Source: a virus
Length of the DNA stretch: 39,015 bases
IMG/VR virus record: IMGVR_UViG_3300005293_000011
Location: 988 to 40,002 of that record
Reading direction: 5' to 3' (one strand)
Both the position numbers and the translations under genes were made by a program. Positions 1-39,015 of the stretch are shown here, in pieces. How positions within the stretch are numbered: position 1 is the stretch's first letter; every line of letters begins with the position of its first letter. The notes under the pieces are model-generated. The model was not told the DNA's origin. It worked only from the letters and a program-made list of their open reading frames with translations, and did no database searches.

Positions 1-353
1 GTGTTAGCAAACGTCAAGGATTCATCTAGCTGGTGATACTGATCCGTAAGGTGCGCCATGTAATTTCGGAACTGCAGCCAGGTGTTACTAGAGAAGTTAC
101 CGAGCAGTTTACGACTGACCTCGAACATACCTTCAGTCTTTACGACGTGGGCCTGAATATCCTTGTCGACTAGACGCTGGACATCGTACTCGTCCGTAGT
201 CCAGAGGTTGGCCTCAGCGTCCCAAACTGCATAGAACCCCTTAGCGCGGATCATCAGATCTTTTGAGCGGACGATCTTGTAATCGGGGTAAACCTCGAGA
301 ACGGGCCGCTTGGCCGTACCGCCTTCTCGCTCTTTAATCTGATAAAAATCCAT
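1..353 (-). CDS. Conserved phage protein, 5' part only (runs off left edge)
   Basis: The frame stays open for 117 codons from an ATG at 353 to the window edge, so only the N-terminus is present. A strong ribosome site (GGGAGGTGAC) sits directly before the ATG, one base after the stop of the upstream gene. The start reads MDFYQIKERE, followed by EVYPDYKIVRSKDLMIR, FYAVWDAEANLWTTDEYDVQRLVDKD and WLQFRNYMAHLTDQYHQLDESL. I recognise this N-terminus from a large conserved protein of many Gram-positive phages. It is sometimes annotated near replication functions, but no catalytic motif is visible here, so I assign no function. Confidence 0.85.
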   Translation of the reverse strand, partial: MDFYQIKEREGGTAKRPVLEVYPDYKIVRSKDLMIRAKGFYAVWDAEANLWTTDEYDVQRLVDKDIQAHVVKTEGMFEVSRKLLGNFSSNTWLQFRNYMAHLTDQYHQLDESLTFAN

Positions 354-354
354 G

Positions 355-930
355 TCACCTCCCTGAATATGTTCGTGGACCGCCGTTTACGTAGTCGCCT
401 TCTAAAATATAGGAAGACATTTGATACAAGATTTCGACTTTCCTTTGGTCCCGAGGATCTAGCTGCACGGGAAATAACCCGCCTGTGCCGTCTCGGTCAT
501 ACGTCCGATTGATCAGTTTGTCGAGAGTCTCGTCAACTGTCTCCTGGATTGAGATCTCGTAAATATCGTCTGTATACTCTTTAAGCCCTAGATTCTCGAC
601 GAGTTTCCAGAACCAAGGAGCGGTTGTACCTCCAGCTTCGAAGGCCAACCGCTCCGCTAGGGCAATCATCATTTCTAGAACTGAGCACTCGAGTTCAAGC
701 CAGTCCTTATCGGGAACTTCTTGATCTGTTTCTCGAATCCAATTGATCCGTAGATCGAGTCCCTCAGCGGCACGATTGTCGTCATTTGGTACGTACCATC
801 CGAACGGTGTGCAATATAGCCGCTTAAGCAGTTCCCAATGGGTGTGTTCCGGGTTCTTTGCCCTGAGGCTTACAACCTTGGAACACACCCATTCGAAATA
901 TTGATCGTATACGCGATTAGCGTCCGTCAA
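355..930 (-). CDS. Conserved phage protein of unknown function, TTG start
   Basis: The product is 191 residues, soluble and acidic, with no signal peptide or membrane segment. The start is a TTG whose last two bases form the stop of the upstream gene (TTGA overlap). GAGG lies five bases before it and no ATG occurs early in the frame, so translational coupling is likely. The motif YVPNDDNRAAEGLDLR followed by ECSVLEMMIALAERLAFE is characteristic of a conserved family in Firmicutes and some actinobacterial phages. Its function is unknown to me. It belongs to the conserved block at 0.3-6.8 kb. Confidence 0.88.
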   Translation of the reverse strand: MTDANRVYDQYFEWVCSKVVSLRAKNPEHTHWELLKRLYCTPFGWYVPNDDNRAAEGLDLRINWIRETDQEVPDKDWLELECSVLEMMIALAERLAFEAGGTTAPWFWKLVENLGLKEYTDDIYEISIQETVDETLDKLINRTYDRDGTGGLFPVQLDPRDQRKVEILYQMSSYILEGDYVNGGPRTYSGR

Positions 931-1652
931 TCGTCCTCATCAGAGAAATCGCTCCCCTGAATGTGAGCGATCATGTCGGAGTACTTGCCGGTCTCCTTGA
1001 CAATCTCCCAGTCGATATCCAGCAGGGGGTTGCGAACGTAGACGATGTGGTCGCTGTCCGACATGACGCCGAAACGATCGAGGTTGATCGTACCGAAGTC
1101 CGAGTCAGGATCGAGCATGATGCTATCGTCTTCGAAGCACACAACGTTGTCACCAGCGAAGTAGGTGATCGTCTGCTTCTGGAAGTGCGGGTTGTCATCG
1201 AAGTACTCGCTGACCGAGATCAGATATGGCGCAGCGTCTGACCGTGTAGCCTTGAGGTTCTCGTAGAGCGTCTCGTTGGCGTCAGCCGGAAGAAGATCCT
1301 TGTCTCCGGTCTCGTTCTCGAATGCATTGAAGACGCTACCGGTCTGGTAGTTGGCAGCTTCTTCGGCAAGCTTTTCGTTCAGCTTCGCATGCTCCAAGAT
1401 GGCGTTGACCGTCTTCTCTTCCAGCACAGCAAGTTCCTCGTCCAGAATATCCGGGCGGTTCTCCTTGATGAAGTCCGTGGGCGTCTCGTAGTCGTCCTTA
1501 CGGATATAGCGGTAGTTCGCCTTCACGTCCTCGATCTCTCGGTCCAGCCGAGCTTCGAACTTACGCTTGGTAAACTGCCATACCGTGAGGGCTCCGAGGC
1601 CCGTTCCGATTCCGTAGGACAGCATGACGTTGAGTTGGTGGCGGTTGATCAT
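927..1652 (-). CDS. Conserved N-terminally anchored phage protein
   Basis: The product is 241 residues. A hydrophobic N-terminal segment (residues ~7-25, LNVMLSYGIGTGLGALTVWQF) is followed by a charged, coiled-coil-prone stretch at ~30-110. The C-terminal domain contains APYLISVSEYF, ITYFAGDNVV and DHIVYVRNPLLDIDWEIVK. I recognise the C-terminal domain from phage proteins found beside DUF6353 proteins; no activity is known to me. The predicted arrangement is a single membrane anchor with a cytoplasmic domain. The ribosome site AAGGAGAAAAACTG precedes the ATG and is identical to the one at 2218. The gene overlaps its downstream neighbour by four bases. Confidence 0.9.
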   Translation of the reverse strand: MINRHQLNVMLSYGIGTGLGALTVWQFTKRKFEARLDREIEDVKANYRYIRKDDYETPTDFIKENRPDILDEELAVLEEKTVNAILEHAKLNEKLAEEAANYQTGSVFNAFENETGDKDLLPADANETLYENLKATRSDAAPYLISVSEYFDDNPHFQKQTITYFAGDNVVCFEDDSIMLDPDSDFGTINLDRFGVMSDSDHIVYVRNPLLDIDWEIVKETGKYSDMIAHIQGSDFSDEDD

Positions 1653-1664
1653 CAGTTTTTCTCC

Positions 1665-1874
1665 TTATTTGCTTGCTTCGGCGAGTTGTGCCCAGGTCTT
1701 ACCACAGATACACTGATGGTCGCCGTCGTGATCGATACCGATCTTGCAGTGATGTGTAAGGGTAAGACCTTCGCCGCGAGCGACTGTAGCCTTACCCTTA
1801 CACTTGTAGCTACGCACAGGCACCGGAATCTTACCGTTGTCGTACGTAGCCTTACCCCACTGAGGAACTGCCAT
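1665..1874 (-). CDS. Small putative zinc-binding protein
   Basis: The product is 69 residues. Its ATG shares one base with the upstream stop (TGATG), so it is probably translated by reinitiation. Cysteine and histidine residues are spaced as SYKCKG, THHCKIG and HQCICGKTW, which could bind one zinc ion. No family is recognised. A GTG one codon upstream is an alternative start, but the TGATG junction repeats at several other junctions in this region and is preferred. Confidence 0.75.
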   Translation of the reverse strand: MAVPQWGKATYDNGKIPVPVRSYKCKGKATVARGEGLTLTHHCKIGIDHDGDHQCICGKTWAQLAEASK

Positions 1875-4745: not shown

Positions 4746-4785
4746 TTTGTTTCCCTTTCAAGAGAAAATATAAAGGCCCAGGTAG

Positions 4786-5069: not shown

Positions 5070-5102
5070 TTTGCTCCTTTCAAAAGCATTGGAATATAAC
5101 GG

Positions 5103-5182
5103 TGCGCACGGCGGGATTTGAACCCACGACCTTGTATCGAGAATACCCTCGTACCTGCTCTGCCCAACTGAGCTACGTGCGC
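5103..5182 (-). tRNA. tRNA-like gene with aberrant anticodon arm
   Basis: The acceptor stem is perfect (GCGCACG with CGTGCGC). The D arm is GCTC-AGTTGGGCA-GAGC, and the T arm has a GTGGG/CCCGC stem and a TTCAAAT loop, with discriminator A and no encoded CCA. Between D arm and T stem there are 29 bases instead of the usual 22-23. The best fold there is GTA-CGAG, a six-base GGTATT loop, CTCG, a bulged A, and TAC. No standard seven-base anticodon loop forms, so the amino acid cannot be assigned. It may be a degenerate or unusual tRNA. Confidence 0.7.
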
Positions 5183-5190
5183 AACCCTAG

Positions 5191-5697
5191 CTAGGCCTGG
5201 CGTTCCCGACGAAGGGCCGGCTCGGGCACTGCCTGGGCGAACTGCTCACGAGCACCAGCGACATACTCCGAGTTGGCCTTGGTCTTCTCCTCCGCAGCCT
5301 TCTCGAAGTCGATCTTGTCCTGAGCCTTCTGGATGAGTGCAGCAGGAAGAACACCCTCGATGAAGGCGAGACCCTTCTCAGCATCGTTTTCGAAGAGCGA
5401 GAACAGCCAGTCCGAGTAATATACCGACTGTTCGAACTTCTTGGTGATCTCCGGGCTCTTCTCGAACGTGATGCCGTCGTCATGCTTGATGCCGTACGCA
5501 GCAGCGACGAGTTCGCGGATGAACTTGAGGATCGCTGTGAGGTTCTCGGTGGCGACCAAGTCCTGCATCTCTTCCTGGATGCCGGAAGCGTTGCGTCCGG
5601 AGAAGTCAACCACCTCGATGTCCGAGAGGTGGAAGTACATCACCGCCGTGCGCTTGTGGTCGTCGAAGTCGGTGAATTCAAAGGTCTGACGAATCAT
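5191..5697 (-). CDS. Conserved phage protein resembling tail-assembly-chaperone-type family
   Basis: The product is 168 residues. The N-terminal part reads TFEFTDFDDHKRTAVMYFHLSDIEVVDF. It continues with ENLTAILKFIRELVAAAYGIK, DDGITFEKSPEITKKFEQS and FIEGVLP. I know this pattern from a family in many siphophages that is usually placed with tail genes and proposed as a tail assembly chaperone or structural accessory. Here it lies in the small-gene region, far from the tail operon, so the role is uncertain. The ribosome site is AAGGAAC, and an ATATTC motif sits between it and the ATG. Confidence 0.8.
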   Translation of the reverse strand: MIRQTFEFTDFDDHKRTAVMYFHLSDIEVVDFSGRNASGIQEEMQDLVATENLTAILKFIRELVAAAYGIKHDDGITFEKSPEITKKFEQSVYYSDWLFSLFENDAEKGLAFIEGVLPAALIQKAQDKIDFEKAAEEKTKANSEYVAGAREQFAQAVPEPALRRERQA

Positions 5698-5725
5698 GAA
5701 TATAGTTCCTTAGTTGGGTTGGTTG

Positions 5726-5950: not shown

Positions 5951-6027
5951 TGCATTCCCCTTTCAAGAGAATATAGCGTTCTTACACGGGGCGCTCAACA
6001 ACAGTCGAACGCCATGGGGGTATCTCT

Positions 6028-7471: not shown

Positions 7472-7766
7472 TTACCTTGATCCTCGATGTGTGTCCCTCA
7501 GGATATGGCTCTTGGCGGTCCCAAACCGGTCCGGGGAATCGTCCCTTGATGCAGAGATCCGTGCCAGTAGCCTTGCAGGTGGGACAGGGGACAGGACCGT
7601 AGTCGAGGGGCTTCTCGGAAATAGCCCTGTCGTACTTACACGGGCCGTGCCGCAGGTCGGCGGGCACGAACGTCCCACAAGCCAAGCACAGGTACTGGCC
7701 CGCTTTGTCGTTAGCCCCCACGGGAACATCGACGCCACCCGCATTCTTTGTAAATATGTGTGTCAT
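7458..7766 (-). CDS. Small zinc-ribbon-like protein
   Basis: The product is 102 residues. Two cysteine pairs are clear: YLCLACGTFVPADL with a following GPCKYD, and VPCPTCKATGTDLC. This predicts one or two zinc sites. The second of two adjacent ATGs (ATGATG) is chosen because AAGGAG lies at proper spacing from it. A short hairpin lies just upstream in the leader. No specific family is recognised. Confidence 0.78.
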   Translation of the reverse strand: MTHIFTKNAGGVDVPVGANDKAGQYLCLACGTFVPADLRHGPCKYDRAISEKPLDYGPVPCPTCKATGTDLCIKGRFPGPVWDRQEPYPEGHTSRIKVNAQE

Positions 7767-7785
7767 CATTCTCCTTAAAAGAAAA

Positions 7786-7817
7786 AGAGAAAGCACAGGA
7801 TTAGTGTGCGTTCCCTT
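7786..7817 (-). terminator. Short hairpin with pyrimidine tract, copy A
   Basis: On the minus strand, stem GCACA and TGTGC (7793-7809, seven-base loop) is followed by TTTCTCTTTTTC. The 32-bp block is identical to 8454-8485. It lies after the stop of the 7824-8066 gene and before the ribosome site of the 7766 gene. A weak terminator or processing hairpin is inferred. Confidence 0.5.
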
Positions 7818-7823
7818 TTGGAA

Positions 7824-8066
7824 TTACTCTGCTTCGGGGGTGATCCAAAGCGAGTTCTTGGCTTCCTTGGCGGCCTTGCGGTTAACGTTCCAGGTACGTG
7901 CCTTGCCGAGAGCGGAAGCACCGACGGACAGGAGTCCGATGGCAGCGATCGGGATTGCGATGCTGACTACGGACACGAGTGCGGAGGTGGCGACCTGCTC
8001 TTTGACAGAGGGGTACATGTTGACGGTAACGGGCGTGGTCTCGGGGGAGGTTTCGATCTCGTTCAT
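7824..8066 (-). CDS. Small single-pass membrane protein
   Basis: The product is 80 residues. The ATG at 8066 follows CGAAAGGC and the 34-bp element. One membrane helix (~28-53, ATSALVSVVSIAIPIAAIGL...) is followed by a basic tail (KARTWNVNRKAAKEAK). Longer frames upstream overlap the repeat element and are rejected. The codons are strongly biased and lack the AATAT motif, as in the highly expressed structural genes, which hints at strong expression. Confidence 0.82.
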   Translation of the reverse strand: MNEIETSPETTPVTVNMYPSVKEQVATSALVSVVSIAIPIAAIGLLSVGASALGKARTWNVNRKAAKEAKNSLWITPEAE

Positions 8067-8091
8067 GGTATTGCCTTTCGTGGGTATGAGT

Positions 8092-8125
8092 GGGGTTCTA
8101 TTACAAGCCCGGTTTTTCCCGCGAG
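8092..8125 (-). promoter_or_regulatory. Intergenic repeat element, copy 3
   Basis: Minus-strand reading CTCGCGGGAAAAACC, then GGGCTTGTAATAGAACCCC. It lies between a hairpin (8138-8155) and the ribosome site of the 8066 gene. The TAATAG-to-ATG distance is about 30 bases, which would give a very short leader if this is a promoter. Confidence 0.65.
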
Positions 8126-8130
8126 GCAAA

Positions 8131-8164
8131 AGAGAAACCACAGGTTTAAGTGTGGTGTCCCTTG
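8131..8164 (-). terminator. Short hairpin with pyrimidine tract, copy C
   Basis: Stem CCACA and TGTGG (8138-8155), followed on the minus strand by TTTCTCTTTT. It is related to the hairpins at 7793 and 8461. The outermost pair is G-C in those copies and C-G here, a compensatory change that supports a real RNA structure. It lies between the stop of the 8183-8293 gene and repeat copy 3. Confidence 0.55.
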
Positions 8165-8182
8165 TGAGGTCTAACTGGGATG

Positions 8183-8293
8183 TCAGCGGGAATAGCGAAT
8201 TTCGCGAACTAGAATCCAGATGAGCCAGAGTCCACCGGTGAGGGTGAACAGGAGGGCATCTGCGATGAAGTTCCAAAAGCCGTACTTGCGCAT
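8183..8293 (-). CDS. Small conserved phage membrane protein (GGLWLIW type)
   Basis: The product is 36 residues: MRKYGFWNFIADALLF, then TLTGGLWLIWILVREIRYSR. The pattern FWNF...D...TGGLWLIW.LVRE is a widespread small membrane protein in actinobacteriophages. The role is unknown to me. The ribosome site ACGAAAGGAAAACCC precedes the ATG, with repeat copy 4 immediately upstream. Confidence 0.85.
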   Translation of the reverse strand: MRKYGFWNFIADALLFTLTGGLWLIWILVREIRYSR

Positions 8294-8310
8294 GGGTTTT
8301 CCTTTCGTAG

Positions 8311-8344
8311 GGGGTTCTATTACAGACCCGGTTTTCTACGCGAG
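8311..8344 (-). promoter_or_regulatory. Intergenic repeat element, copy 4
   Basis: Minus-strand reading CTCGCGTAGAAAACC, then GGGTCTGTAATAGAACCCC. It lies directly after the stop of the 28-residue cysteine protein and 18 bases before the ATG of the 8293 gene. No separate terminator lies between it and that stop. Confidence 0.65.
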
Positions 8345-8346
8345 GG

Positions 8347-8433
8347 TTAACCACAGCCAATCGCCGTACACATTCGACATGACACCGATTCCGTGATTGG
8401 GTCAATTTCTTTGTCGCAACATTTGCAATGCAT
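8347..8433 (-). CDS. Tiny zinc-knuckle-like protein
   Basis: The product is 28 residues: MHCKCCDKEIDP then ITESVSCRMCTAIGCG. Six cysteines, in C-x-CC and C-x-x-C pairs, predict a minimal zinc site. A convincing ribosome site (TTGAAAAGGAAAC) precedes the ATG. Similar short C-x-C-C...C-x-x-C proteins are common in phages. Frame and start are clear, but the short length limits confidence. Confidence 0.7.
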   Translation of the reverse strand: MHCKCCDKEIDPITESVSCRMCTAIGCG

Positions 8434-8453
8434 TCTAGTTTCCTTTTCAAAAA

Positions 8454-8485
8454 AGAGAAAGCACAGGATTAGTGTGCGTTCCCTT
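8454..8485 (-). terminator. Short hairpin with pyrimidine tract, copy B
   Basis: This is an identical 32-bp duplicate of 7786-7817. The stem GCACA/TGTGC lies at 8461-8477, followed on the minus strand by TTTCTCTTTTTT. It lies after the stop of the 8502-8720 gene and before the 28-residue gene. Confidence 0.5.
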
Positions 8486-8501
8486 GTAGTTCTCGTGAGG
8501 G

Positions 8502-8720
8502 TTACTTGGTGAGGTTGTGGACGGCGACTTCAGCACCGCTCTTGAGTGTGACGGCCGCGAGTACGGTCAGCACAGACGCGACGACGATGATCTTGACCGT
8601 TTCCTTTACTGTGGCAGTAAAGATGTTGGCTTGATCCTGGTCGATGAGTTTGTGGTTGACGTGGACTTGCAGGCCCTTCGTCTCGGAGGAGTCGGGGGTG
8701 GAGTGTTTGAACAGGCCCAT
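8502..8720 (-). CDS. Small single-pass membrane protein
   Basis: The product is 72 residues. A soluble N-terminal half (HSTPDSSETKGLQVHVNHKL...) is followed by a membrane helix at ~43-60 (KIIVVASVLTVLAAVTL) and a short tail. The ribosome site CGAAAGGAAACC lies between repeat copy 5 and the ATG. It has the same one-gene unit layout (element, ribosome site, gene, hairpin) as its neighbours. No family is recognised. Confidence 0.82.
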   Translation of the reverse strand: MGLFKHSTPDSSETKGLQVHVNHKLIDQDQANIFTATVKETVKIIVVASVLTVLAAVTLKSGAEVAVHNLTK

Positions 8721-8740
8721 GGTGGGTTTCCTTTCGTTGA

Positions 8741-8773
8741 GGGGTTCTATTACAGGCCCGGTTCTTGACGCGT
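8741..8773 (-). promoter_or_regulatory. Intergenic repeat element, copy 5
   Basis: Minus-strand reading ACGCGTCAAGAACC, then GGGCCTGTAATAGAACCCC, 20 bases before the 8720 ATG. The 8774-8837 stretch upstream holds no gene that I can support. It contains a short CCCGGGAGGGA region and then the terminator-like hairpin. Confidence 0.65.
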
Positions 8774-8837
8774 TTTGTTTTTCTGGAGAATCCCTCCCGG
8801 GGAATTTTCACATGTCGTTTTTCGAAAGGAAAAAGGA

Positions 8838-8876
8838 TAGTCCCTGTTCTAAGTGTTTAGTTTAGAGCAGGGACTA
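8838..8876 (-). terminator. Rho-independent terminator after the 8909-9187 gene
   Basis: Arms at 8838-8852 and 8862-8876 pair as TAGTCCCTG with CAGGGACTA, plus five more pairs after one mismatch. On the minus strand they are followed by TCCTTTTTCCTTT. This is the most convincing terminator in the window and separates the 8909-9187 gene from repeat copy 5. Confidence 0.75.
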
Positions 8877-8908
8877 CCATTTTGAATTGTCTGGGTCGGG
8901 GGAGCGGG

Positions 8909-9187
8909 TTAGCTCTTACGAATCCAACTGAATGCCTTGGAAGTGATGACGTTCAGACGCTCGTGATGCAGGACTGCCCCAATACCAACGAGATTTGTCA
9001 GCGAACCGATGACGACGTCGGTCGAGGGGACCTTGGACTGCGGTTTAGGCAGCAGTGGGGTCAACTTGACGACGGCATCGAGGTTCTTCTGATAGATGTC
9101 GGAGGTGGTGGGGAGTTCGGTCATCTCGGCGATGAGGCGGTCGATCTCTTCTTTGACAGGGTTGGGCTTACGTTCGATAGCGAACAT
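8909..9187 (-). CDS. Small protein of unknown function
   Basis: The product is 92 residues. The N-terminal half is charged and helical (PVKEEIDRLIAEMTELPTTS). The C-terminal half has a weakly hydrophobic stretch (TDVVIGSLTNLVGIGAVLHHE, ~57-77) that might be a membrane helix. The ribosome site TTGAAAGGAGAACC precedes the ATG. It is flanked by repeat copy 6 upstream and the terminator at 8838 downstream, so it is a likely monocistronic unit. Confidence 0.8.
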   Translation of the reverse strand: MFAIERKPNPVKEEIDRLIAEMTELPTTSDIYQKNLDAVVKLTPLLPKPQSKVPSTDVVIGSLTNLVGIGAVLHHERLNVITSKAFSWIRKS

Positions 9188-9203
9188 GGTTCTCCTTTCA
9201 AGA

Positions 9204-9237: not shown

Positions 9238-9255
9238 AAAATTAAAAGGCCCTGT

Positions 9256-9300: not shown

Positions 9301-9305
9301 CACTA

Positions 9306-28810: not shown

Positions 28811-30556
28811 TCATTCGAAACCCTCCTTGTTAGCTTTGTATGCAATGTATGCATCCATAAGTGCGGAGACGTTATCGATCTTTTGGTCTGCACGCTTCTT
28901 ATACAGCTTACGGTTACCGTTGGTGTCCTCAAGGACAACCGAGTTTCCCATAGCAAACTGCATAAGTAGCTCATCGAATATGAGAGCGCGATCTTCGGCA
29001 AGGATCTTCAGTTCACCCAGGGGTACAGACTCAGTCTTCACACCCTGAATTACTTTCTGGATACCGTAAGCGCCGTTCTCTTGCTCCCAACGCTTGATAA
29101 ACTCGTTCGCGTTGTAGGGGTCATACCCAATAGCACGAACAGCGTAGCGATGCTGGATAATATGGCGATCAAGATCTTCATAGACCTCCATCATGTCGAG
29201 AACATTGCCGTCCAGAACATGTAGGCTGCCCTCTTCGAAGAACTCCTGGTACTTGAGCCGTGCTGAAGTATGAAGCTTCATCATGGTTCGTTCAGAAATA
29301 TAGCTTCGAGTCTTGACACCGAATCCGCCGTTAGACAGCGGGAAGAGGAAGGTAAACGCACAGAAGTCATCACCCTGCGAAAGGTCCGCACCAACGGTAC
29401 AGAGCATTCCATCAAAGTTCCGACGAGGGTGCACGATGGTTTCTTCGAATGGGAAGAAGTACGTGAAGCCCTCAAGCGGGATACCGAATCGCTTCGCCAG
29501 AATATCGTTACGAGTAGCCGGGTTCTGCTCTGCTCGCTCGACATCACGGTGGTAGGTTTCCCACTCAACCGTCTTACCAATGTTGGGCTGGGCTTTTGGC
29601 CACATAGCAGGCTTTCCGACTTCCTCAAGTTCATCCAGCTTGTAGTGCCAGATAGAAATATGAGGAGCGTAGTACTCACCCTTGAGGATCTTGGCTAGCT
29701 CGAGCTTGATCGTATCCCCAGCACCGTTACGAACCGTACCCTCTGAACTGATGGCCACAATCAAGTAGTCAGGATGCTTGGAAGCTCCCTGCTCAATTGC
29801 CCCGATGACATCCTCACGAATATCACCAGAAAGCCACTCATCCACCGTCGAGATCTTGGGTCGAAGACCCTGAAGCTTGTTGATGGACATCGGTCGGACC
29901 TCAAGGATTGACCCTGTGAGGAAGTTTTCGATGCCCTTCTTGGTGGAAGCCAGTTTGGCACGGTCCATCTTGGAACCGGTAGTATTCTGCAATGATCCCG
30001 CAGTAAGAAACTTGAACAGGGGTCCGGGCGCACGAGTGATTGCAGTCCTGAACGGTGACATGACCTCTTCGGCCTGTTTCATCGTAGGTGCGGTTGTAAT
30101 CTGGTGCGTGGTTGACGTGTCCACGTTTAGAAAATAAGCCTGGATGCATTCGGCGTACATTGACTTGGCTGCACCACGTGCAACGATCAAATACTGCTTC
30201 TGGATCAGGCGTCGTTTCGTACTCTTACGGACGAACTTAGTTCCGCGCCCATTCGGGTCGGGGATCTCGTATGTTCGTTCATCGAAGTAATACCATCCGA
30301 AGATTTGCTCAGCCCACACCTTGAATGTGTCGAGCATCTTCAGTGATTCACCGTCGGTCAGAGTGAGTTCAGTCTCGCAATAGAGAATGAACCCCTCGAC
30401 CGCGGCGTTGTCGAAGTAATAGTTGGGGTTGTCGATGAGGCCATCAATACGCTGCATTTCCAGGCCGATTTCACGGTTAACGGGAATATCGCCACGCATG
30501 ACGGATTCGCGGAACGCCGCGTAATACTTCGGGACTGCAGTGTTTGATAGCGTCAT
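28811..30556 (-). CDS. Terminase large subunit
   Basis: The product is 581 residues. The ATPase part has a variant Walker A (ARGAAKS, ~126-132), the coupling-type segment ITTAPTMKQAEEVM and a Walker B ISTVDEW (D239, E240). The nuclease domain has CTVGADLSQGDDFCAFTF (D391) and AIGYDPYNANEFIKRW. This is the Terminase_1 type. It packages DNA through the portal and cuts concatemers. No standalone small subunit is obvious; the 36277-36612 protein is a candidate partner. Confidence 0.95.
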   Translation of the reverse strand: MTLSNTAVPKYYAAFRESVMRGDIPVNREIGLEMQRIDGLIDNPNYYFDNAAVEGFILYCETELTLTDGESLKMLDTFKVWAEQIFGWYYFDERTYEIPDPNGRGTKFVRKSTKRRLIQKQYLIVARGAAKSMYAECIQAYFLNVDTSTTHQITTAPTMKQAEEVMSPFRTAITRAPGPLFKFLTAGSLQNTTGSKMDRAKLASTKKGIENFLTGSILEVRPMSINKLQGLRPKISTVDEWLSGDIREDVIGAIEQGASKHPDYLIVAISSEGTVRNGAGDTIKLELAKILKGEYYAPHISIWHYKLDELEEVGKPAMWPKAQPNIGKTVEWETYHRDVERAEQNPATRNDILAKRFGIPLEGFTYFFPFEETIVHPRRNFDGMLCTVGADLSQGDDFCAFTFLFPLSNGGFGVKTRSYISERTMMKLHTSARLKYQEFFEEGSLHVLDGNVLDMMEVYEDLDRHIIQHRYAVRAIGYDPYNANEFIKRWEQENGAYGIQKVIQGVKTESVPLGELKILAEDRALIFDELLMQFAMGNSVVLEDTNGNRKLYKKRADQKIDNVSALMDAYIAYKANKEGFE

Positions 30557-31521: not shown

Positions 31522-34359
31522 TTATGCGATAGCGACTTGGAATGCCAATCCACTTTGTGAGCTAATATCGCTAAAGACGCGAGTTTCAGCGGGTGCAAGA
31601 TAATCTCCGACCCATAGAGACGTATGGCTAGCAACGTTAGGGTATATCATGGTCCGCATTACGGTAGGTACATCCACCGTGGGCGGACCCGGTACCGCGG
31701 CGGCGCTCTTAGTAGCAGTAATTACCAAGGCTCGTTGACCTATAAGCATAGGTACCGCAAGGGCTGTTGTCTTACCACTAGAGCCTGGTCGAACTGTGAC
31801 TACGCCGGCAGTCATCGACGTAACACCCCGATAAACAGTCGTAGCGTACGTTGAATATCCACCTGCGGAGTTGTTATAGTTGACTGTTCCAGCCGTAATA
31901 TCCGAGGCCGAAAGAATCTTCCACCCAGCCCAGAAACTGCCGGTCCCCATGATCGTTGTTGGCACAAGCGTTGTAAACTCGGCAGCGGTGATCACGGTGC
32001 TAGTACCGTTACCGGCATTTACACAAAGGAATATAGCATCGCCCGCTATAGCGCCAGCAGGTATCGCGATGTTGTTGATCGTGTTTGGAACTTCTGCTGA
32101 GCGTGCCGAAATAAACACCGGCGTTGGCTGGGCCCCTGGTTGTGGAACCGGCGCAATAACTCCGGAACCGGAGCACTGCACCATTGTGGCGCCCTTAGCG
32201 ATAGCAGTATCGTACATTAGCTGCGTGCTAGCAATATGGCCGACAACGGGCTTACCAACAGCCAGTGCGGTGTCCCAATAGGACTGTGCTGCGTTGATGT
32301 CCATACCAATAGTCGTCCATGCAGGGTTTCCGGCCCAGGTAGCAAAGCCGCCATCATCCACATCTGTTGCGTAGAAATAACCCCAAGTGGCTGCCCATCC
32401 ACGGTTCAAAGCTTCCTGCGCGCGCAGTGCACCAGCGCTACTCGCCCCTGTGAACTTCCAAATAAGACGTGATTTGTCTACGCCAGAAGCGTCTACAACG
32501 TCCAAGAAGTTCGGATTCTGGTTGATCGAGTTCTTCGGATCAAGGATAAGCAAGTGAGTCTTGCCGTACTTGGCGAGGAACGCATCCAATCGGAAATAAG
32601 GACGCGAAGGCCAACCCGGAATCGGCCGTAGCACGTTGTTGTAGGTCGCCTGAATTTGAGCCCATGTAAGTGTGTTCGCATTCGGGGAACCAGTAACGCC
32701 GGCTGAGGCATCGAACGTGGGGTCGTGCATACCGAACCACACACCGTCGGAAGACCGCTGGCATGACATTTCGAGAGCACTGAATCCACGCATCACACTC
32801 TGGTCATAAGCGTATTCGCTCATCTCAGCGTAGTTTGCAGATCCACCACGATGCGCCCAAGCGGTTCCCGGTGTTGCGAGCATGGCTGCAACATTTGGAA
32901 GCCCCTTGTTCCAGATACGTAGAGAAGTCGGCGTAACTCGTTCACTAGCGCCGTTCAGCATGGACGCGTAAGCTCGAGAGCCATCGCCCTTCTTTACAAC
33001 AAGCCCGACTGGTGCAAACCCATTCAGAGCAATGCTGCTGATACGGTTAGCAGTCGACGGGGCAGTCCACAAAGTAGAATGTGCAGCCACAGTCAACGAT
33101 CCGCCAGCATAAATCGGGTTGTAGCCTAACCATGCGGTGGTTCGTGAACTGGCTGTACTCTCGATCAAGGTGTTCTGGAAGTTGGCCATGTGGGTGAAGC
33201 CTGGTGCAGTTGTCTCGGGACGGTAGGAAAGCCCCGCAGTACGCTCTTCCCCCGCAAAGGTCAAAGCCAAGTACGGCGTTTTCGTTACCGTGTATTCTGC
33301 GGTAGTCGTGTTCCCATAAGAATCACCCCCACCAACGGGGCTAGACAGATCTACATTCTTCACTACGAAGATCGCAGCAAGGCTTCGAGCACTCGTAAAG
33401 TTACCGAACGTGTAGTCGACAGCCGTCTCTGCCGCAGCAGAAGGAATCGGTTTGTAGAACAGTCCCTGTGCACGGTCAGCTGATCCGTTACCGCCCCCAT
33501 CGCCACCTCGAGCCCAACCTGCCGGTATAGCTACTTCGCCGCCGCTGGGTACTAGACCTTGCGAGCGGACAGCAGCAATCAGAAGATCACCGTCTACCAG
33601 GTTGGTTGGTTTTGGGATGGTGATTGACGTTCCAGAAGAGGTGCCGACATACGCTGGGGCGGTTGGCATAGGTACACCAACAGGTAGTGGTAGGTTGCCT
33701 CCGGGGATTCCAAGCTGCAGACCTGCACCGTTAGGTACAGTGTTCGCGGCAAACATTACAGAAACGTCGCCACTAGCGGTAGGCGCTGCCAACTCTTTCG
33801 TAAAGAAAGAACCCCACTCGATACTCAATTGCTGGTCGGTCTTCTCCAGGAGGAGATTGAAACCATTTTGAGTGATGTAGGACCAGGGGCCGGCAGCCGT
33901 CGTTGCTTCCTGCATGATTGCAAGAGCCAGCGACGGGACTGTCGGTGTGACGCTCGGCATGGTGATGTCGCCGCGGTTTACTGGCGCCTGGTTTCCTCGG
34001 TACCACACAGGGCCGACCAACACGTCTGAAAGTGTCGTTACGTTGTGGTCGTAGAAAGACGCAGAGAGTGCGAAGACGCCGACGGCCGTACTAAGTGAGA
34101 TGACATAGTCTGAGTACGGTGTAGCCAGAGAGTATCGCCGAATAGCAACGGTCATTCGACGTGTGTTGACAGAGTAATTCAGGACCGGAGTCCACCACCC
34201 CTTGGCTTCGATGTCTGTGAGGGTCGGCGTACCGCCCGCGCCCAGCAAGACTACAAGAAGATCGCCTTCTTGGGTGCCCTGGGGTACTGGCACCGTCACC
34301 GTAGTTGCGCCACCGTTCGTTAGTAGAACAGTCGTCGCTCGGACTTTAGGAACGGTCAT
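31522..34359 (-). CDS. Tail fibre/spike with glycerophosphodiesterase domain
   Basis: The product is 945 residues. Two related beta domains (~1-225 and ~230-450, each with a GDLL-type strand) precede a GDPD-like domain at ~490-740. That domain carries the expected motifs: HRG (503-505), Glu530 and HD (545-546). A further beta domain ends it (~745-945). GDPD domains in tail proteins are thought to cut glycerophosphate-type cell wall polymers such as teichoic acids, which would aid adsorption or entry. Target chemistry is inferred. The gene lies beside a collagen-like fibre gene. Confidence 0.88.
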   Translation of the reverse strand: MTVPKVRATTVLLTNGGATTVTVPVPQGTQEGDLLVVLLGAGGTPTLTDIEAKGWWTPVLNYSVNTRRMTVAIRRYSLATPYSDYVISLSTAVGVFALSASFYDHNVTTLSDVLVGPVWYRGNQAPVNRGDITMPSVTPTVPSLALAIMQEATTAAGPWSYITQNGFNLLLEKTDQQLSIEWGSFFTKELAAPTASGDVSVMFAANTVPNGAGLQLGIPGGNLPLPVGVPMPTAPAYVGTSSGTSITIPKPTNLVDGDLLIAAVRSQGLVPSGGEVAIPAGWARGGDGGGNGSADRAQGLFYKPIPSAAAETAVDYTFGNFTSARSLAAIFVVKNVDLSSPVGGGDSYGNTTTAEYTVTKTPYLALTFAGEERTAGLSYRPETTAPGFTHMANFQNTLIESTASSRTTAWLGYNPIYAGGSLTVAAHSTLWTAPSTANRISSIALNGFAPVGLVVKKGDGSRAYASMLNGASERVTPTSLRIWNKGLPNVAAMLATPGTAWAHRGGSANYAEMSEYAYDQSVMRGFSALEMSCQRSSDGVWFGMHDPTFDASAGVTGSPNANTLTWAQIQATYNNVLRPIPGWPSRPYFRLDAFLAKYGKTHLLILDPKNSINQNPNFLDVVDASGVDKSRLIWKFTGASSAGALRAQEALNRGWAATWGYFYATDVDDGGFATWAGNPAWTTIGMDINAAQSYWDTALAVGKPVVGHIASTQLMYDTAIAKGATMVQCSGSGVIAPVPQPGAQPTPVFISARSAEVPNTINNIAIPAGAIAGDAIFLCVNAGNGTSTVITAAEFTTLVPTTIMGTGSFWAGWKILSASDITAGTVNYNNSAGGYSTYATTVYRGVTSMTAGVVTVRPGSSGKTTALAVPMLIGQRALVITATKSAAAVPGPPTVDVPTVMRTMIYPNVASHTSLWVGDYLAPAETRVFSDISSQSGLAFQVAIA

Positions 34360-34361
34360 TA

Positions 34362-35474
34362 TCAGGCCTCGGCTTCGATGATCAGTGTGTAGGCGGGCGT
34401 ACCACCAGGCACTGTGCCACCTTTCGGAATGTAGACTGCACGAGCCCAGCCAACAACATTCTGCCCAGCGATCGGGAGAATGTCATTCCAGGGAGTCGTG
34501 CCAACGGGACGGTACTGAATGGCGGAGGCGCCGGCTTGCATCTCGGTGCCGGGACCGGTAGCCCCTTGCGGGCCAACGGAACCAACGTTGCCGGTGTCAC
34601 CCTTAACGCCTTGGACACCCTGAGTTCCCTGCGCGCCGGTGTCACCCTTAAGGCCTTGTGGACCCGTAGATCCGGTGAGACCAGTGTCGCCCTTGAGGCC
34701 TTGAGTACCCTGAGGCCCAGTGAGACCGATCGGACCTTGAAGCCCCTGAGGACCGGTGAGACCGATCGGACCTTGAAGCCCCTGAGGGCCGGTGAGTCCA
34801 GTGGGTCCGGTGAGTCCGGTGTCACCTTTAGCGCCTTGAGGACCAACGGGACCGACAGGACCCTGCGGACCGACCGGGCCTTCTGGACCCTGAGGACCCA
34901 TAGGTCCTACGTCGCCATCAAGTCCACCTTCAGCAGCTTCTGCACGATCGGCAGCAGCTTCTGCTCGGAGGGCTGCAGCTTCTGCTTCGTTCTTGTAGCC
35001 GATGACCTCGTCAGTGACAAGCACCCACTCAGCAATGTCGGCACCAGGGTTCGAAGCTACGGGAACAACCGTAGCGAGGTCGATGACCCCACCGTCGGAA
35101 CCGGTCAGTGCGAAGGAGCGAGAGGGCATCCGGTTGCCGGGGCGAATAACGACGTCCCAGGTCCAACCGGTCGGCGTGATCTCAGGGCTGAAGCCCCAGG
35201 CCAAGACGACACCAGGATTCACGTCACCCGGAACAACCAAATAACCGTTGGCGTCAGTCGTAGCAGTGATGACTTCCTGGAATACGGTTACTGGGTCGTC
35301 TGCTCCGGGGACGCGGAAAACCGCAGGCCGAAGAGTCGGGGTGAAGGTGACGATTGCACCCACGATGGGGAGCATCTCGGGAGCCTGGTCTGGATCGTCC
35401 GAGTCAATGACACCTTGAGCAAGACGACCAACGACGGTGAACGTCTTAACCTCGGCAGGATATGTCTCAGCCAT
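34362..35474 (-). CDS. Collagen-like fibre or appendage protein
   Basis: The product is 370 residues. The N-terminal ~175 residues form a carboxypeptidase-regulatory-like beta domain ([35 protein letters not shown]). A short Ala/Glu coiled coil follows ([20 protein letters not shown]). About 125 residues of uninterrupted Gly-X-Y triplets then form a collagen-like rod, and a ~45-residue C-terminal cap completes it. The repeat DNA is internally repetitive and prone to length change. It probably forms a trimeric fibre. Confidence 0.87.
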
Positions 35475-35856
35475 TGTAGTTCCTCACAGGAGTTGAGTGG
35501 TACGAGTGCGTGCTGTCGTCAGCAACGTTGAGTCGCCACTCCATCTCCTTGATCTCGGTACGGATAGCTTCGATACCGTAAGAAGTCTGAGGTGGGTCGA
35601 GAATAAGGCGAACACTCATGCAGACGAACGTCTTGACCATGTTGATGTTCTGCTTCCCCGCAAGGAAGTCAGCCCAGGTCTCAGTTGCGTCCTCGATTTG
35701 GAATGCGTAGTCCTTGGGACCGACGCCAAGCTGGAACAGCTTCGAGAATACGCTGTTGATGTGCATGATGATGTCTTCATCGAATGCAGTGTAGTCCTCG
35801 TCCATACCGATTACTTTCTTAACGGACGTGAGAATGCTTTGATCTGCGATAGGCAT
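35467..35856 (-). CDS. Conserved connector-like phage protein
   Basis: The product is 129 residues, starting [20 protein letters not shown] with ribosome site AAAGGAGGGATC; an in-frame start six codons upstream is less well placed. [34 protein letters not shown] and [10 protein letters not shown] match a family known as head-tail connector-like in Gram-positive phages. It lies outside the connector group at 24 kb, before the terminase, which is unusual. It overlaps the next gene by eight bases. Confidence 0.82.
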
Positions 35857-35870
35857 GTCGATCCCTCCTT

Positions 35871-36284
35871 TCACCAGAGGTTAGTGTCTCCAGGTCGCCG
35901 TTCGACGATCCGCATTGGCAAAGAATCCGGCGAGCCATAGTGGATGGCATTGTGCGTCGGATGAGTTGTGGTAATCAGGAATTCCGGGTCTAGGATCTCG
36001 GGGTTGTAGTCATAGACATCCTCGACCGTCATTGGGTTCATGTGGTGAACCGTGATACGATCGTGAATCTCATAGCCTTCAACCCCGAGATCGAGACCGC
36101 GGTCTCTTGCGATACAGTGGTTGCGAACTTGTCGCCACTCTCGAGAGATGTAGAACCGCTGATTGAGGTAGCGCTCATAGTTGAAAGTGGCTAGCCCAAC
36201 ACTTGATCGAATCGACAGGTACTCAAACCGTTCATCGAAGCTATCGAGTTGGACTAGCTCACTGTAGGTACGCTTCTTAGGCAT
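35871..36284 (-). CDS. HNH endonuclease
   Basis: The product is 137 residues, starting MPKKRTYSELVQLDSFDERF. The HNH-like core contains ITVHHMNPMTVEDV (H80, H81), then TTTHPTHNAIHYG (H108, H111, N112, H115). The family is common beside terminase genes in Gram-positive phages and is thought to aid DNA packaging or cleavage. An ATG three codons upstream (MGTMPKK) is an alternative start. It overlaps the upstream gene by eight bases, consistent with joint translation. Confidence 0.87.
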   Translation of the reverse strand: MPKKRTYSELVQLDSFDERFEYLSIRSSVGLATFNYERYLNQRFYISREWRQVRNHCIARDRGLDLGVEGYEIHDRITVHHMNPMTVEDVYDYNPEILDPEFLITTTHPTHNAIHYGSPDSLPMRIVERRPGDTNLW

Positions 36285-36612
36285 CGTACCCATGGTCTTC
36301 ACCGCGGTAAGCCTGCAAAGCTTGCAGCACCTTGGCGTAGTCTTCTTCTCGAGAGCGAGCAAGCGTGATGTCCTCGTTCTGTACACGAAGACGCTCAGCT
36401 TCCAAGCGCAGCTTAGTCTCTTCGAGACGGTTGCGAGTGCTTCCGAGTTTGAGATAGTGGCTGAGAACCTGGGACGACACGGTTCCCTCGGCGATCTGCC
36501 TTTCGGCAAGATCGGTAGCCGCAGCAATCAGCTGATTCTCACGCGCTTCCGGCGTCTTGGCCGGGGGACGTTGCCGTCGAACTGGTTGTGTGGCCTTGTC
36601 CGAGGAAACCAT
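36277..36612 (-). CDS. Coiled-coil partner of HNH, possible small terminase-type protein
   Basis: The product is 111 residues. PPAKTPEARENQLIAAATDL, HYLKLGSTRNRLEETKLRLEAE and NEDITLARSREEDYAKVLQAL match a conserved family next to HNH genes in Gram-positive phages. A helical N-terminal part and a long coiled coil resemble small terminase subunits, but that role is inference. The two genes overlap and probably act together. The ribosome site is GGAGGTGATGAC before the ATG. Confidence 0.8.
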   Translation of the reverse strand: MVSSDKATQPVRRQRPPAKTPEARENQLIAAATDLAERQIAEGTVSSQVLSHYLKLGSTRNRLEETKLRLEAERLRVQNEDITLARSREEDYAKVLQALQAYRGEDHGYDA

Positions 36613-36647
36613 GTCATCACCTCCTGGTTTCTATACCATTTTGAACG

Positions 36648-37562
36648 TTATCCGCGGCGGATTGCAGCGGGGTGGTTGCGAGTTCCGACCCAGACCGGAG
36701 TACCGTTCCAGTTCACCTTGACCGGCCCAGTGCCGGGGTTGTCGAGGACCTCGAGGGTACCAGCACTGGCGGGGATCAACTGGTTCGGCGCGAAGTTGCC
36801 GGTCAGTGCATTGCTGTAGTTGCGGTAGTAGTACTGGCCGTCGGACGGCGTGTCATACCACAGGCGCTGAGGCTTACCGGCCGGAGCCTGACCGCCATTG
36901 ACGACAGCAGGATGGTTGCGGGTACCAACCCAAACGAGATCGCCATCCGCAGCACGAACCTGAACCGGACCGGTGCCCGGGTTGTCGATGACATCAAGTG
37001 TCTGACCGCCACGGAGCATCTGGTTCGGTGCGAAGTTGCCCGAAAGCGCGTTCGCGTACTTCCAGTAGTAGTACTGACCCTCAGACGGGACGGAGAACTT
37101 CTGGCCGGAGACAGGAGCGCCACCGCTGGACGCTGCTTCGCCGCCGGTACCGGGAAGGTCCTTGGAGAAGTACAGCGCCGGGTCAACACGACCGCCATTG
37201 AGGTAGAGTTCGAAGTGGAGATGCGTGCCAGTGGCAGCACCCGACGAACCCATGTACGCAATGACCTGTCCAGCCTTGACCGGAGTGCCCGCTGCAACCA
37301 GAACTCCGCCGGGACGGATGTGGTTGTACGTGGTGACGTTGCCGTGACCGTGATCGATGCGGATGCGTCGACCCCAACCGCCGTTGAAACCAGATCCGGT
37401 GTACGCATCGATGACGGTACCGTCAGCAGCTGCGAGAATCTTCTGCGTCTCGCCGGGATTGGAGACCTGCCAGCCGTAATCGATGCCACGGTGGCCTGCG
37501 CCGGCCGTGGACCAGCCGCGAACGAGGTTGGTAGACGGAGTTGGCTTGATGAGAACAGTCAT
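36648..37562 (-). CDS. Endolysin: M23 peptidase with two cell-wall-binding repeats
   Basis: The product is 304 residues. The N-terminal domain has the M23 zinc motif pieces GHRGIDYG (H24, D28) and THLHFELY (H114, H116), plus NHIRPGG (H81). It should cut peptide bridges of peptidoglycan. Two ~65-residue repeats follow, each with GQYYY...NAL(S/T)GNFAPNQ...DNPGTGPV and WVGTRNHPA. They are likely cell-wall-binding modules of a type I cannot name. There is no signal peptide, so release through a holin is expected. The start overlaps the upstream stop as TAATG. Confidence 0.9.
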   Translation of the reverse strand: MTVLIKPTPSTNLVRGWSTAGAGHRGIDYGWQVSNPGETQKILAAADGTVIDAYTGSGFNGGWGRRIRIDHGHGNVTTYNHIRPGGVLVAAGTPVKAGQVIAYMGSSGAATGTHLHFELYLNGGRVDPALYFSKDLPGTGGEAASSGGAPVSGQKFSVPSEGQYYYWKYANALSGNFAPNQMLRGGQTLDVIDNPGTGPVQVRAADGDLVWVGTRNHPAVVNGGQAPAGKPQRLWYDTPSDGQYYYRNYSNALTGNFAPNQLIPASAGTLEVLDNPGTGPVKVNWNGTPVWVGTRNHPAAIRRG

Positions 37563-37834
37563 TACTTACCTTCCACTTCGTCAGCCTTGTTGAGGCCTTC
37601 TTCTCGAGTCGTGCCATCGTCGTCGGACTCCTCGACGACCGTGTGGTCGTAGTCGGACGGGTTGAACTCGACGGGCTCAGCGGCCTGCGTCTTGTCACCC
37701 TCGACGGTGATGGGCTTGGATGCCTTGGTCTCGTCGGGAGCGACTTCCTCAGCGGGGATCGGTGCCGAATCCTTGGGCTCGGACTTCGGAGCAGCCTTTG
37801 CGGTCTTAGCCGCGGGCTTCTTTGCAGCAGTCAT
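37562..37834 (-). CDS. K/A/P/E-rich low-complexity protein
   Basis: The product is 90 residues. The N-terminus is basic (AAKKPAAKTAKAAPKSEPK) and the remainder strongly acidic. The protein is probably disordered. It lies between the endolysin and a three-helix membrane protein, with 1- and 4-base overlaps and a strong AAGGAG ribosome site. Low-complexity proteins of this kind are common near virion genes in actinophages. No function is assigned. Confidence 0.8.
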   Translation of the reverse strand: MTAAKKPAAKTAKAAPKSEPKDSAPIPAEEVAPDETKASKPITVEGDKTQAAEPVEFNPSDYDHTVVEESDDDGTTREEGLNKADEVEGK

Positions 37835-38277
37835 GAGTTAATCTCCTTGATTGTCTTGATCTCATCAGTATCATGACGAGGTTTCACCAGTAGTTTGTCC
37901 GGAGCAGTCTTAAGTGACTCTGGACGGAATTTGCGCTTCCACAAGAATACGCTTAGAGCGGTGATTGTGTAAGCGACATAGCCGTAAGCGAAAAGCCTAA
38001 CGACTGGACGCCACCAGATAACGTCTGGCGGTAGGGTGTTCCATGAAATTTGCAGACGCGGGTCAACAAAGATGCCGATACCGACAACAAAGATAACGAG
38101 CAGCAAGGACAAAGCGAATCTGAAGATCATGCGTCCGCCGGTTGTTGACTTGGGATCAAAGAACACCTGATAGCTGATCACAAATCCAGTAAGTGCGATG
38201 GAGATGTAAAGCAAGATGACGTTAGTGAGTACCCATACCGCTGGATTTATAAACTCTAGGAATTCGATCATGTTCAT
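37831..38277 (-). CDS. Three-helix membrane protein next to endolysin
   Basis: The product is 148 residues with three membrane helices (~12-37, ~50-72, ~90-113) and a basic C-terminal tail. Its place next to the endolysin suggests a lysis accessory or second holin, but I recognise no holin family. The ATG overlaps the upstream stop as ATGA. A second in-frame ATG lies two codons downstream. Confidence 0.8.
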   Translation of the reverse strand: MNMIEFLEFINPAVWVLTNVILLYISIALTGFVISYQVFFDPKSTTGGRMIFRFALSLLLVIFVVGIGIFVDPRLQISWNTLPPDVIWWRPVVRLFAYGYVAYTITALSVFLWKRKFRPESLKTAPDKLLVKPRHDTDEIKTIKEINS

Positions 38278-38480
38278 GCGTGTCGCCTCTTCGGTTTCAG
38301 TGTGTATTCGAAATCATCCCCGAACCCATTGCGATTCTCGCGGTCTTTTAGCCAACCGTTGATTCGATCCACGTGTGGCTGTTGCTTTTTGGTCTGCTCA
38401 AGAGATGCTTCGGCTTGTCGAATCAGAGCGTCGGCGTTTGGCCCATGCTCTGCCTTCTTTCTACAGGTGAAGTATCCCAT
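38274..38480 (-). CDS. Small helical protein, DUF7620-like
   Basis: The product is 68 residues: ADALIRQAEASLEQTKKQQP, then NRNGFGDDFEYTLKPKRRHA. Small proteins with a similar EASLE...(N/H)xFxxx(I/F)E pattern occur before endolysin genes in many actinophages. The start is well supported by GGGGAGGCAACGGA. The gene overlaps its upstream neighbour by 58 bases in another frame, the longest such overlap here. Confidence 0.78.
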   Translation of the reverse strand: MGYFTCRKKAEHGPNADALIRQAEASLEQTKKQQPHVDRINGWLKDRENRNGFGDDFEYTLKPKRRHA

Positions 38481-38806
38481 TCCGTTGCCTCCCCTCTTTT
38501 TGGGGTCGTCTCTTGGAAGAAGTGTTTGGTAATCTCGTTAGCTGTAATAAGCTGACCGTTCTGTTGGGTCAATGCATCAACTGCAGCAGAGAGTTTGACA
38601 TTCGCTTCGACCTGGCGACGATGCTGTGCGCCGGGCACGATCTTTTCGTTTGCGAAGGCTCTTGGTATGTAGATAAGAAGCCAAACGGTAACCCCAATGA
38701 ACAACGACCAGCCACCAACGGCTGCCCAGTCCCTTTGGAAGATTGCATTGAATAGATCAGGGGAGGTTTCTTGAGAGACCGAAAGCATTACTGTCTGGTT
38801 AGACAT
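38423..38806 (-). CDS. Single-pass membrane protein with coiled coil, first gene of late operon
   Basis: The product is 127 residues, starting MSNQTVMLSVSQETSPDLFN. One membrane helix (~34-52, GWSLFIGVTVWLLIYIPRA) is followed by a helical cytoplasmic region (RRQVEANVKLSAAVDALTQQ). Membrane proteins of this layout precede lysis genes in many actinophages. The start at 38806 is set by GAGAGGAAAC; an upstream in-frame start lacks a ribosome site. The last 58 bases also encode the start of the next gene. Confidence 0.8.
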   Translation of the reverse strand: MSNQTVMLSVSQETSPDLFNAIFQRDWAAVGGWSLFIGVTVWLLIYIPRAFANEKIVPGAQHRRQVEANVKLSAAVDALTQQNGQLITANEITKHFFQETTPKRGEATEWDTSPVERRQSMGQTPTL

Positions 38807-38851
38807 GTTTCCTCTCTCGTTCTGGTCAGTTGTTGTACAGTTTCCGGTGAC

Positions 38852-38969
38852 TTCTAAAGGGGTGACAGGCAACCACAACGGAGACCCGAGGGCCTCGACG
38901 TCGCTCTTGAAAGGAGTAGGGCTGATGAAACCCCTATTTGTGCATAGTCGACTGTCACCCCATTAGAAG
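38852..38969. repeat. Large inverted repeat in the leader of the late operon
   Basis: CTTCTAAAGGGGTGACAG (38852-38869) and the complement of CTGTCACCCCATTAGAAG (38952-38969) match at 17 of 18 positions, separated by 82 bases. The segment lies in the 209-base gene-free stretch upstream of the first minus-strand gene. It could be a pair of binding sites (operator, terminase or replication protein) or a large hairpin. A plus-strand mini frame lies between the arms. No convincing minus-strand promoter was recognised. Confidence 0.75.
38925..38966 (+). CDS. Possible 13-residue leader peptide on the plus strand
   Basis: ATG to TAG encodes MKPLFVHSRLSPH. It is preceded by CTCTTGAAAGGAGTAGGGCTG, the same type of ribosome site used by several minus-strand genes of this phage (at 9187, 7197 and 4745). 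The quality of that site is the only support. It would be the first rightward reading frame and might couple to a gene beyond the window. Confidence 0.35.
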   Translation: MKPLFVHSRLSPH

Positions 38970-39015
38970 CAACCGGATTGTTTCTACGCCGAGTCCCCCC
39001 GGGGATATTTTTGGG

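Follow-up and report, generated by a model that had tools for sequence, protein, structure and literature searches.

In the siphovirus lineage to which the stretch of viral DNA analysed here is assigned by its gene content, the coding-strand pentamer ATATT is a DNA element that is under selection, has a direction and occurs throughout the genome. This stretch (the window; 39,015 nucleotides, bases 988–40002 of the 40,002-base virus record IMGVR_UViG_3300005293_000011) carries all its genes on the minus strand, so the word counted as AATAT on the plus strand is ATATT in the coding direction. The element also takes the weaker forms ATATC, TTATT, ATTTC and ATTTT, has a weak extended consensus C-notA-ATATT-Y-Y followed by G-rich and T-poor sequence at +9 to +12, and is surrounded by an exclusion zone of about 45 bp. 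We infer that an enzyme encoded by the phage and acting on DNA or RNA uses it as a strand-specific site; our first choice, with a probability of about 0.3, is that it marks the start sites of the lineage's helicase-primase-family B DNA polymerase (PolB) on the lagging-strand template. No earlier description of the motif was found in the open-access literature searched.

A sequence-only reading of the window had counted about 75 AATAT and about four ATATT on the plus strand, three of the latter within AATATT, and the recount gave exactly 75, 4 and three. The three AATATT, in which the reverse word overlaps the motif, lie at 897–902, 18237–18242 and 18897–18902. The 75 coding-strand copies (minus strand) extend from 156–160 to 32233–32237 with a minimum spacing of 40 bp, and spacings below 50 bp number 3 versus 9.4 in a jitter null (p 0.009). 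All sites listed in that reading exist, with coordinates referring to their high end (e.g. AATAT at 14603–14607), and the pyrimidine that it described as usually following the motif is present at 57 of the 75 sites. Expected numbers were obtained from four synonymous shuffles, within or across genes, all of which keep protein and codon usage and two of which also keep dinucleotides. Window genes contain 68 ATATT versus 15.8–31.2 after shuffling (sd 3.6–3.9, z 9.7–14.4), which ranks the word 1 of 1024 pentamers in each shuffle, and only 3 AATAT versus 9–14.5. The excess is seen in every codon phase, as had been proposed (13/34/21 observed versus 6.9/7.7/4.6 expected with dinucleotides kept). 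The claim that codon preference is an insufficient cause therefore stands, since the excess withstands all four shuffles, including the codon- and dinucleotide-preserving ones named beforehand as a possible refutation. The expectation of roughly 25 copies of each word needs a slight correction, the codon-aware value for ATATT being about 16–31 depending on the null; the strong excess itself is unaffected.

Relatives were found with the terminase large subunit as anchor, the window protein being 74–77% identical to that of many of them. Gene order is common to the window, Rhodococcus phage ReqiPepy6, Streptomyces phages Rima, ClubPenguin and RosaAsantewaa, and Gordonia phage Kenosha. With its homologous terminase, capsid-protease fusion, twin major tail proteins, polymerase fusion and one-strand genes, the window is, on gene content, a member of the ReqiPepy6/Rima/Kenosha (Lactococcus 1706-related) siphovirus lineage. 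Its low-coordinate edge, taken with the 987 flanking bases of the record, matches the DNA polymerase of ReqiPepy6 with 59.6% identity over 443 aa. Judged by its relatives, the genome would measure about 55 kb in full, the contig representing the left 40 kb or so, and the RNA polymerase (RNAP) gene of the lineage would be expected beyond the contig end.

Among 44 whole or nearly whole genomes of the lineage, ATATT is enriched in 42, usually as the first of the 1024 pentamers. The exceptions are genome G025 and Lactococcus phage CHPC971 (34% G+C); loss of the motif in relatives, the other refutation put forward in advance, is thus confined to these two. Counts of ATATT and AATAT are 176 and 6 over the whole genome of ReqiPepy6, 112 and 3 in 50 kb of Rima (60% G+C), 120 and 8 in 50 kb of Kenosha, 75 and 2 in ClubPenguin, and 29 and 2 in RosaAsantewaa. 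An impression of many motif-free relatives, gained from loci flanking the RNAP gene, was overturned by the whole genomes. A host-specific effect was ruled out as well: unrelated phages of the same hosts have no excess of ATATT (Rhodococcus equi phages Pine5, 3 versus 1.6 expected, and DocB7, 5 versus 8.3; Streptomyces phage phiC31, 1 versus 2.5).

Several signs of selection were observed. Between the genes of three annotated genomes no other pentamer of the 1024 is as frequent as ATATT (62 copies), and AATAT occurs twice. Between Gordonia phages that are 85% identical, 82% of ATATT sites are conserved versus 53% for all pentamers (rank 1 of 674), an effect that is weaker in a more distant pair and in a Rima-type pair. 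When every ATATT is frozen, AATAT is the most depleted of the 1024 pentamers (140 versus 295, z −13). The sites also avoid each other. Among 1679 sites no pair lies within 10 bp, where 48 are expected; the observed/expected ratio then rises through 0.10, 0.16, 0.35, 0.55, 0.67 and 0.82 to 0.97, out to 100 bp, and the 14 genomes with a strong signal have hardly any pairs closer than 40 bp. No comparable exclusion was seen for control words free of overlap with ATATT. The near-cognates ATATC, TTATT and ATTTC are likewise kept away from ATATT, and an unbiased scan added ATTTT; TATCA and GATA[ACG] are not excluded near it. The flanks carry C at −2, a base other than A at −1, a pyrimidine at +5 (C and T equally) and little A at +6; farther out, positions +9 to +12 are rich in G and poor in T, and from +13 on the profile is flat. 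This pattern is broadly alike in all three codon phases and between genes. No phylogenetic footprint was detected outside the pentamer.

The strength of the signal varies among gene classes, as computed over 28 genomes. ATATT is in five-fold excess in Dit, minor tail and tail terminator genes, 3.5-fold in polymerase and tape measure genes and two-fold in terminase genes. Correspondingly placed in the window are the Dit and minor tail genes (10768–12758, minus strand, 7 motifs), which belong to the most enriched classes, the tape measure gene (12742–17592, minus strand, 8 motifs, in every codon phase) and the terminase large subunit gene (28811–30556, minus strand, 7 motifs). The capsid maturation protease/major capsid fusion gene (24667–26661, minus strand) has none; in the 28 genomes the capsid gene shows ATATT at 0.19 times expectation, yet 5 copies are observed where its own codons predict 1.6, so that the scarcity is due to the codon bias of this gene family. 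A site lies just past the capsid-protease stop codon (24631–24635, minus strand), and in most of the 28 relatives the first site after this gene is 30–400 bp downstream. The RNAP gene shows neither an ATATT excess (1.0-fold) nor AATAT depletion. The largest gaps in the window, 24631–28141 (capsid region), 22221–24631 (tail tube), 7753–10001 and 32233 to the end, coincide with the motif-poor stretches named by the sequence-only reading. The last of them is the left genome end, where the lysis and fibre genes lie (32238–39015, no motif). Low enrichment near both ends is general: in 21 lineage genomes with cos ends it amounts to 0.75 over the terminal 2.5 kb, about 2 at 2.5–10 kb and about 4 beyond 20 kb, climbing smoothly and nearly symmetrically from both sides over some 20 kb.

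Motifs also occur in leaders, as had been noticed for the sites at 4767, 5699 and 5970. In the window such sites (all minus strand) are found upstream of the gene starting at 4745 (4767–4771), upstream of that starting at 5069 (5093–5097), immediately ahead of the start codon of gene 5191–5697 (5699–5703) and between genes (5970–5974). Placement specific to leaders looked strong in three annotated genomes, but was rejected: between −50 and −20 ATATT is enriched 1.7- to 2.0-fold but ATTTT 2.6- to 3.0-fold, and because such control AT words behave alike, leader placement was not used as evidence.

Whether the element acts in DNA or in RNA could not be decided from orientation alone, because the lineage has its genes in a single direction; apparent minus-strand open reading frames are probably antisense artefacts, and no bidirectional relative that separates transcription from DNA polarity was found in the lineage. 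One clade is informative. Genome G024 enriches both orientations (AATAT 54 versus 19.8, ATATT 44 versus 14.9) although its genes are co-oriented, which counts against a purely sense-RNA role there. Arthrobacter phage Sporto (L085) and G010, also with all genes on one strand, enrich both orientations in part; the forms used in this clade are GRATAT and ATATYC. In these three genomes forward and reverse sites exclude each other, with 3 pairs within 40 bp versus 22 expected. A polarity switch along G024, seen in 4-kb bins, disappeared once expectations were included. Enrichment of both orientations together with exclusion of opposite sites points to a motif that acts in DNA and not as sense RNA. 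In agreement, the motif in RNA is no more unpaired than with shuffled flanks (0.636 versus 0.653, p=0.30). Of the two ideas advanced in the sequence-only reading, the DNA-level signal is thus backed by counter-selection of the reverse word, by the two-orientation clade and by opposite-strand exclusion. The other, processing of AUAUU by an RNase E-type enzyme, did not hold up, since it predicts neither the enrichment nor the depletion of the reverse word, and no extra unpairedness was seen.

As to the enzyme concerned, lagging-strand priming ranks first, programmed nicking second and initiation by RNAP third. If forks ran in the direction of the genes, the coding strand would be the lagging-strand template throughout; selection would favour sites at the points where Okazaki fragments have to begin and act against them on the leading-strand template, primers could start with a purine thanks to the pyrimidine beside the core, and in the two-orientation clade forks would travel both ways. 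The primase-polymerase is present in 43 of the 44 genomes and the window carries its start, the N-terminal part of a putative superfamily 3 helicase-archaeo-eukaryotic primase (AEP)-PolB fusion gene cut at the window edge (3–353, minus strand), which is the candidate recogniser; it is named from its identity to the ReqiPepy6 polymerase, and the domains are taken from relatives. In these relatives the fusion comprises a DUF5906 helicase-like part and a PolB part, and in our own reading of the alignment probable AEP-primase-type motifs lie between the two. AEP primases, including that of phage NrS-1, read short template motifs (PMC8718748), and T7 primase reads a pentamer plus a 10-nt 3' flank (PMC12839067). 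Priming is also supported by a polarity seen within and outside genes and in every codon phase, by sites that are individually conserved, by phase-independent flanks and by the restriction of the motif to the lineage. In Mantel tests the motif profile correlates weakly with the polymerase (0.20, p 0.04) and not with the RNAP (0.02).

Several observations weigh against this choice. The Mantel signal is weak, is seen for several of the early genes and does not peak in the primase domain; such tests for a recogniser were weak overall, with some replication and early genes slightly favoured and neither an endonuclease nor the RNAP tracking the motif profile. Priming predicts neither the exclusion of opposite-strand sites (3 versus 22) nor the strong counter-selection of AATAT, and leaves unaccounted for the symmetric fade towards the ends and the loss of the signal in the RNAP gene. 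The Lactococcus relative has a homologous polymerase and no ATATT excess. In T7, a control whose primase sites are known, primase pentamers are enriched only 1.19-fold and are not polar (170 versus 192); primase sites therefore need not look like ATATT, and priming is possible but not compelled. Polarity is uniform in most genomes, and third-position skew is uninformative on fork direction. A picture covering two of the candidate enzymes, and just as tentative, is that of a directional code of a novel type: the genome would be strewn with several hundred minimal start sites, most of them intragenic, for either the two-barrel RNAP of the lineage or its primase-polymerase, and these sites would be spaced by the enzyme's footprint of about 45 bp and purged in the reverse direction.

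A second, somewhat less favoured possibility is that a phage endonuclease cuts one strand at ATATT and a phage ligase repairs the programmed nick. Close sites would then be harmful, leaving a gap when on the same strand and a double-strand break when on opposite strands, which fits both exclusions. In phage tf, 14 of 14 nick sites and all of their one-mismatch relatives lie on one strand, with genes both ways and positions that recur in relatives (PMC3517423); here too the motif is confined to one strand in most genomes, including the window, though not in the G024/G010/Sporto clade. An HNH endonuclease (40 of 44 genomes) and a ligase (39 of 44) are near-core genes. However, the documented cases, of unexplained function, comprise about 14 sites or a smaller number of major ones, versus 75–176 sites here; the exclusion extends over 45–70 bp; none of the endonuclease families follows the motif profile (HNH Mantel −0.08 and −0.03); and nicking leaves unexplained why dense sites are favoured and the reverse word is depleted genome-wide. 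Dispersed promoters for the single-subunit two-barrel RNAP of the lineage, with starts some 6 nt downstream of ATATT, are unlikely, if still worth serious consideration. On this view reverse sites would be purged because they would yield antisense RNA. The enzyme, which is QDE-1-like, is core (PHROG 4291, in 47 of 50 records, the rest probably truncated), its AlphaFold model matches QDE-1 (E 2.6e-9) and RNAPs of the phage P23-45 type, suggesting a shared fold, and it has a DFDGD signature and helix-turn-helix (HTH) domains at both ends. The G-rich, T-poor sequence at +9 to +12 is reminiscent of a start site, no pentamer is more depleted than AATAT, the spacing is RNAP-sized, and phiKZ-type virion RNAPs use AT-rich promoters with ATATT (AR9 AAATATATATTAT-6N-G; PMC5312081). 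Yet G024 enriches reverse sites within co-oriented genes, the motif profile does not follow RNAP divergence (its C-terminal HTH reaches 0.18, p 0.05), leaders are no richer in ATATT than in other AT words such as ATTTT, so that no upstream preference is apparent, early genes have a separate promoter-like element (TATAATG), the RNAP's own gene shows no signal, and about 150 intragenic promoters would be unprecedented.

The remaining explanations fare worse. NusG has a T-rich pause motif, and by analogy ATATT might act in the non-template strand as a pause or coupling signal for the host RNAP. A T-rich non-template core with G downstream, co-oriented genes, RNAP-sized spacing and a nearly site-free capsid gene are consistent with this improbable reading, but it predicts no AATAT depletion, no reverse enrichment in G024 and no opposite-site exclusion; the motif is missing from unrelated phages of the same hosts, and the capsid depletion is codon bias. 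An RNA-processing or RNA-binding element AUAUU, as in the RNase E idea, would suit the co-orientation with transcripts and the occurrence in leaders; it is very improbable given the lack of an accessibility bias, the reverse depletion and the two-orientation clade, which it does not account for, and a distribution that follows lineage rather than host. Finally, codon usage explains the capsid gap, but we give virtually no credence to the whole motif as a by-product of composition, codon usage or mutation, against which stand the four synonymous shuffles, the intergenic excess, the site conservation and a spacing exclusion from which control words are free.

Comparison with known systems yields partial likenesses. 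The interruptions of T5, phiKMV-like phages and tf (PMC3517423) also involve a short one-strand motif at positions common to relatives, with opposite-strand near-matches missing (tf); unlike ATATT, which is a pentamer with 75–176 copies and mutual exclusion, their motifs measure at least 7 nt and occur about 5–14 times per genome. T7 primase ((G/T)2GTC plus 3' flank) and the AEP primases ORF904 and NrS-1 polymerase (PMC12839067, PMC8718748) share the pentamer scale and the 3'-flank information, and the lineage has an AEP-type primase fused to PolB, but T7 primase sites are neither polar nor clearly enriched. The AR9 promoter resembles the element in its ATATT core with a G a few bases on, and the lineage encodes its own RNAP related to cellular enzymes; AR9, however, has 41 early promoters of about 13 nt ahead of genes, whereas the pentamer is mostly inside genes. 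The lineage RNAP is of the same single-subunit two-barrel fold class as YonO and P23-45 gp64/gp96 (PMC5467207, PMC10770324), but the YonO promoter is undetermined in PMC5467207 and P23-45 promoters are few. EcoP15I sites in T7 all lie on one strand (0/36); there one orientation is avoided, whereas here a three- to five-fold enrichment with conserved spacing is seen.

Chi sites (including the Bacillus 5-mer AGCGG) and FtsK-orienting polar sequences (KOPS) are short, polar, frame-independent, genome-wide oligomers, and ATATT shares these properties. A Chi-like site was nonetheless rejected: an enzyme of the Chi type would enter at the genome ends, and there ATATT is rare, at 0.75 of expectation in the last 2.5 kb and rising inward from both sides. 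We know of no exclusion zone of this kind for Chi.

Other features of these genomes were recorded. The QDE-1-like RNAPs are annotated as HTH DNA-binding protein in many isolates (L167:33543–36254, L084:39649–42276 and homologues); besides their terminal HTH domains they have an invariant N-terminal stretch like HYGILRRSGRYPWGSG. The promoter-like TATAATG element, approximately TCGCR-(AT-rich)-ACA-N-CTATAATGAGACCCC, stands ahead of many small early genes across the lineage (255 copies in 43 genomes, nearly always on the coding strand, e.g. L166/L167 ReqiPepy6 and G008), and about 10% of its copies have ATATT 13–15 bp upstream. The window encodes a tRNA-Pro with anticodon AGG (5101–5182, minus strand). 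The coding strand of its genes lacks CAGCTC (0 versus 16.8 expected), GAGCTC (0 versus 9.3) and GGATCC (0 versus 9.4), which resembles restriction-site avoidance. Avoided palindromes differ by phage in the L082–L085 set (GCCGGC and CCGCGG in Rima, GCCGGC in ClubPenguin, CTCGAG in RosaAsantewaa), and CCWGG is nearly missing from Sporto (CCTGG 1 and CCAGG 0 versus about 93 expected).

These phages of Streptomyces, Gordonia, Rhodococcus and Arthrobacter, a large lineage in which some members are isolates commonly kept in laboratories, thus carry a pentamer under strong, directional, site-by-site selection, and the case shows that the codons used by most genes of a phage can be influenced by selection on a signal in the DNA itself. 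Whatever its reader proves to be, the motif would show across the genome where this enzyme works and would serve as a substrate for tests. It may bear on priming by fused AEP-PolB enzymes, on promoter choice by single-subunit two-barrel RNAPs, or on nicking of the T5/tf kind.

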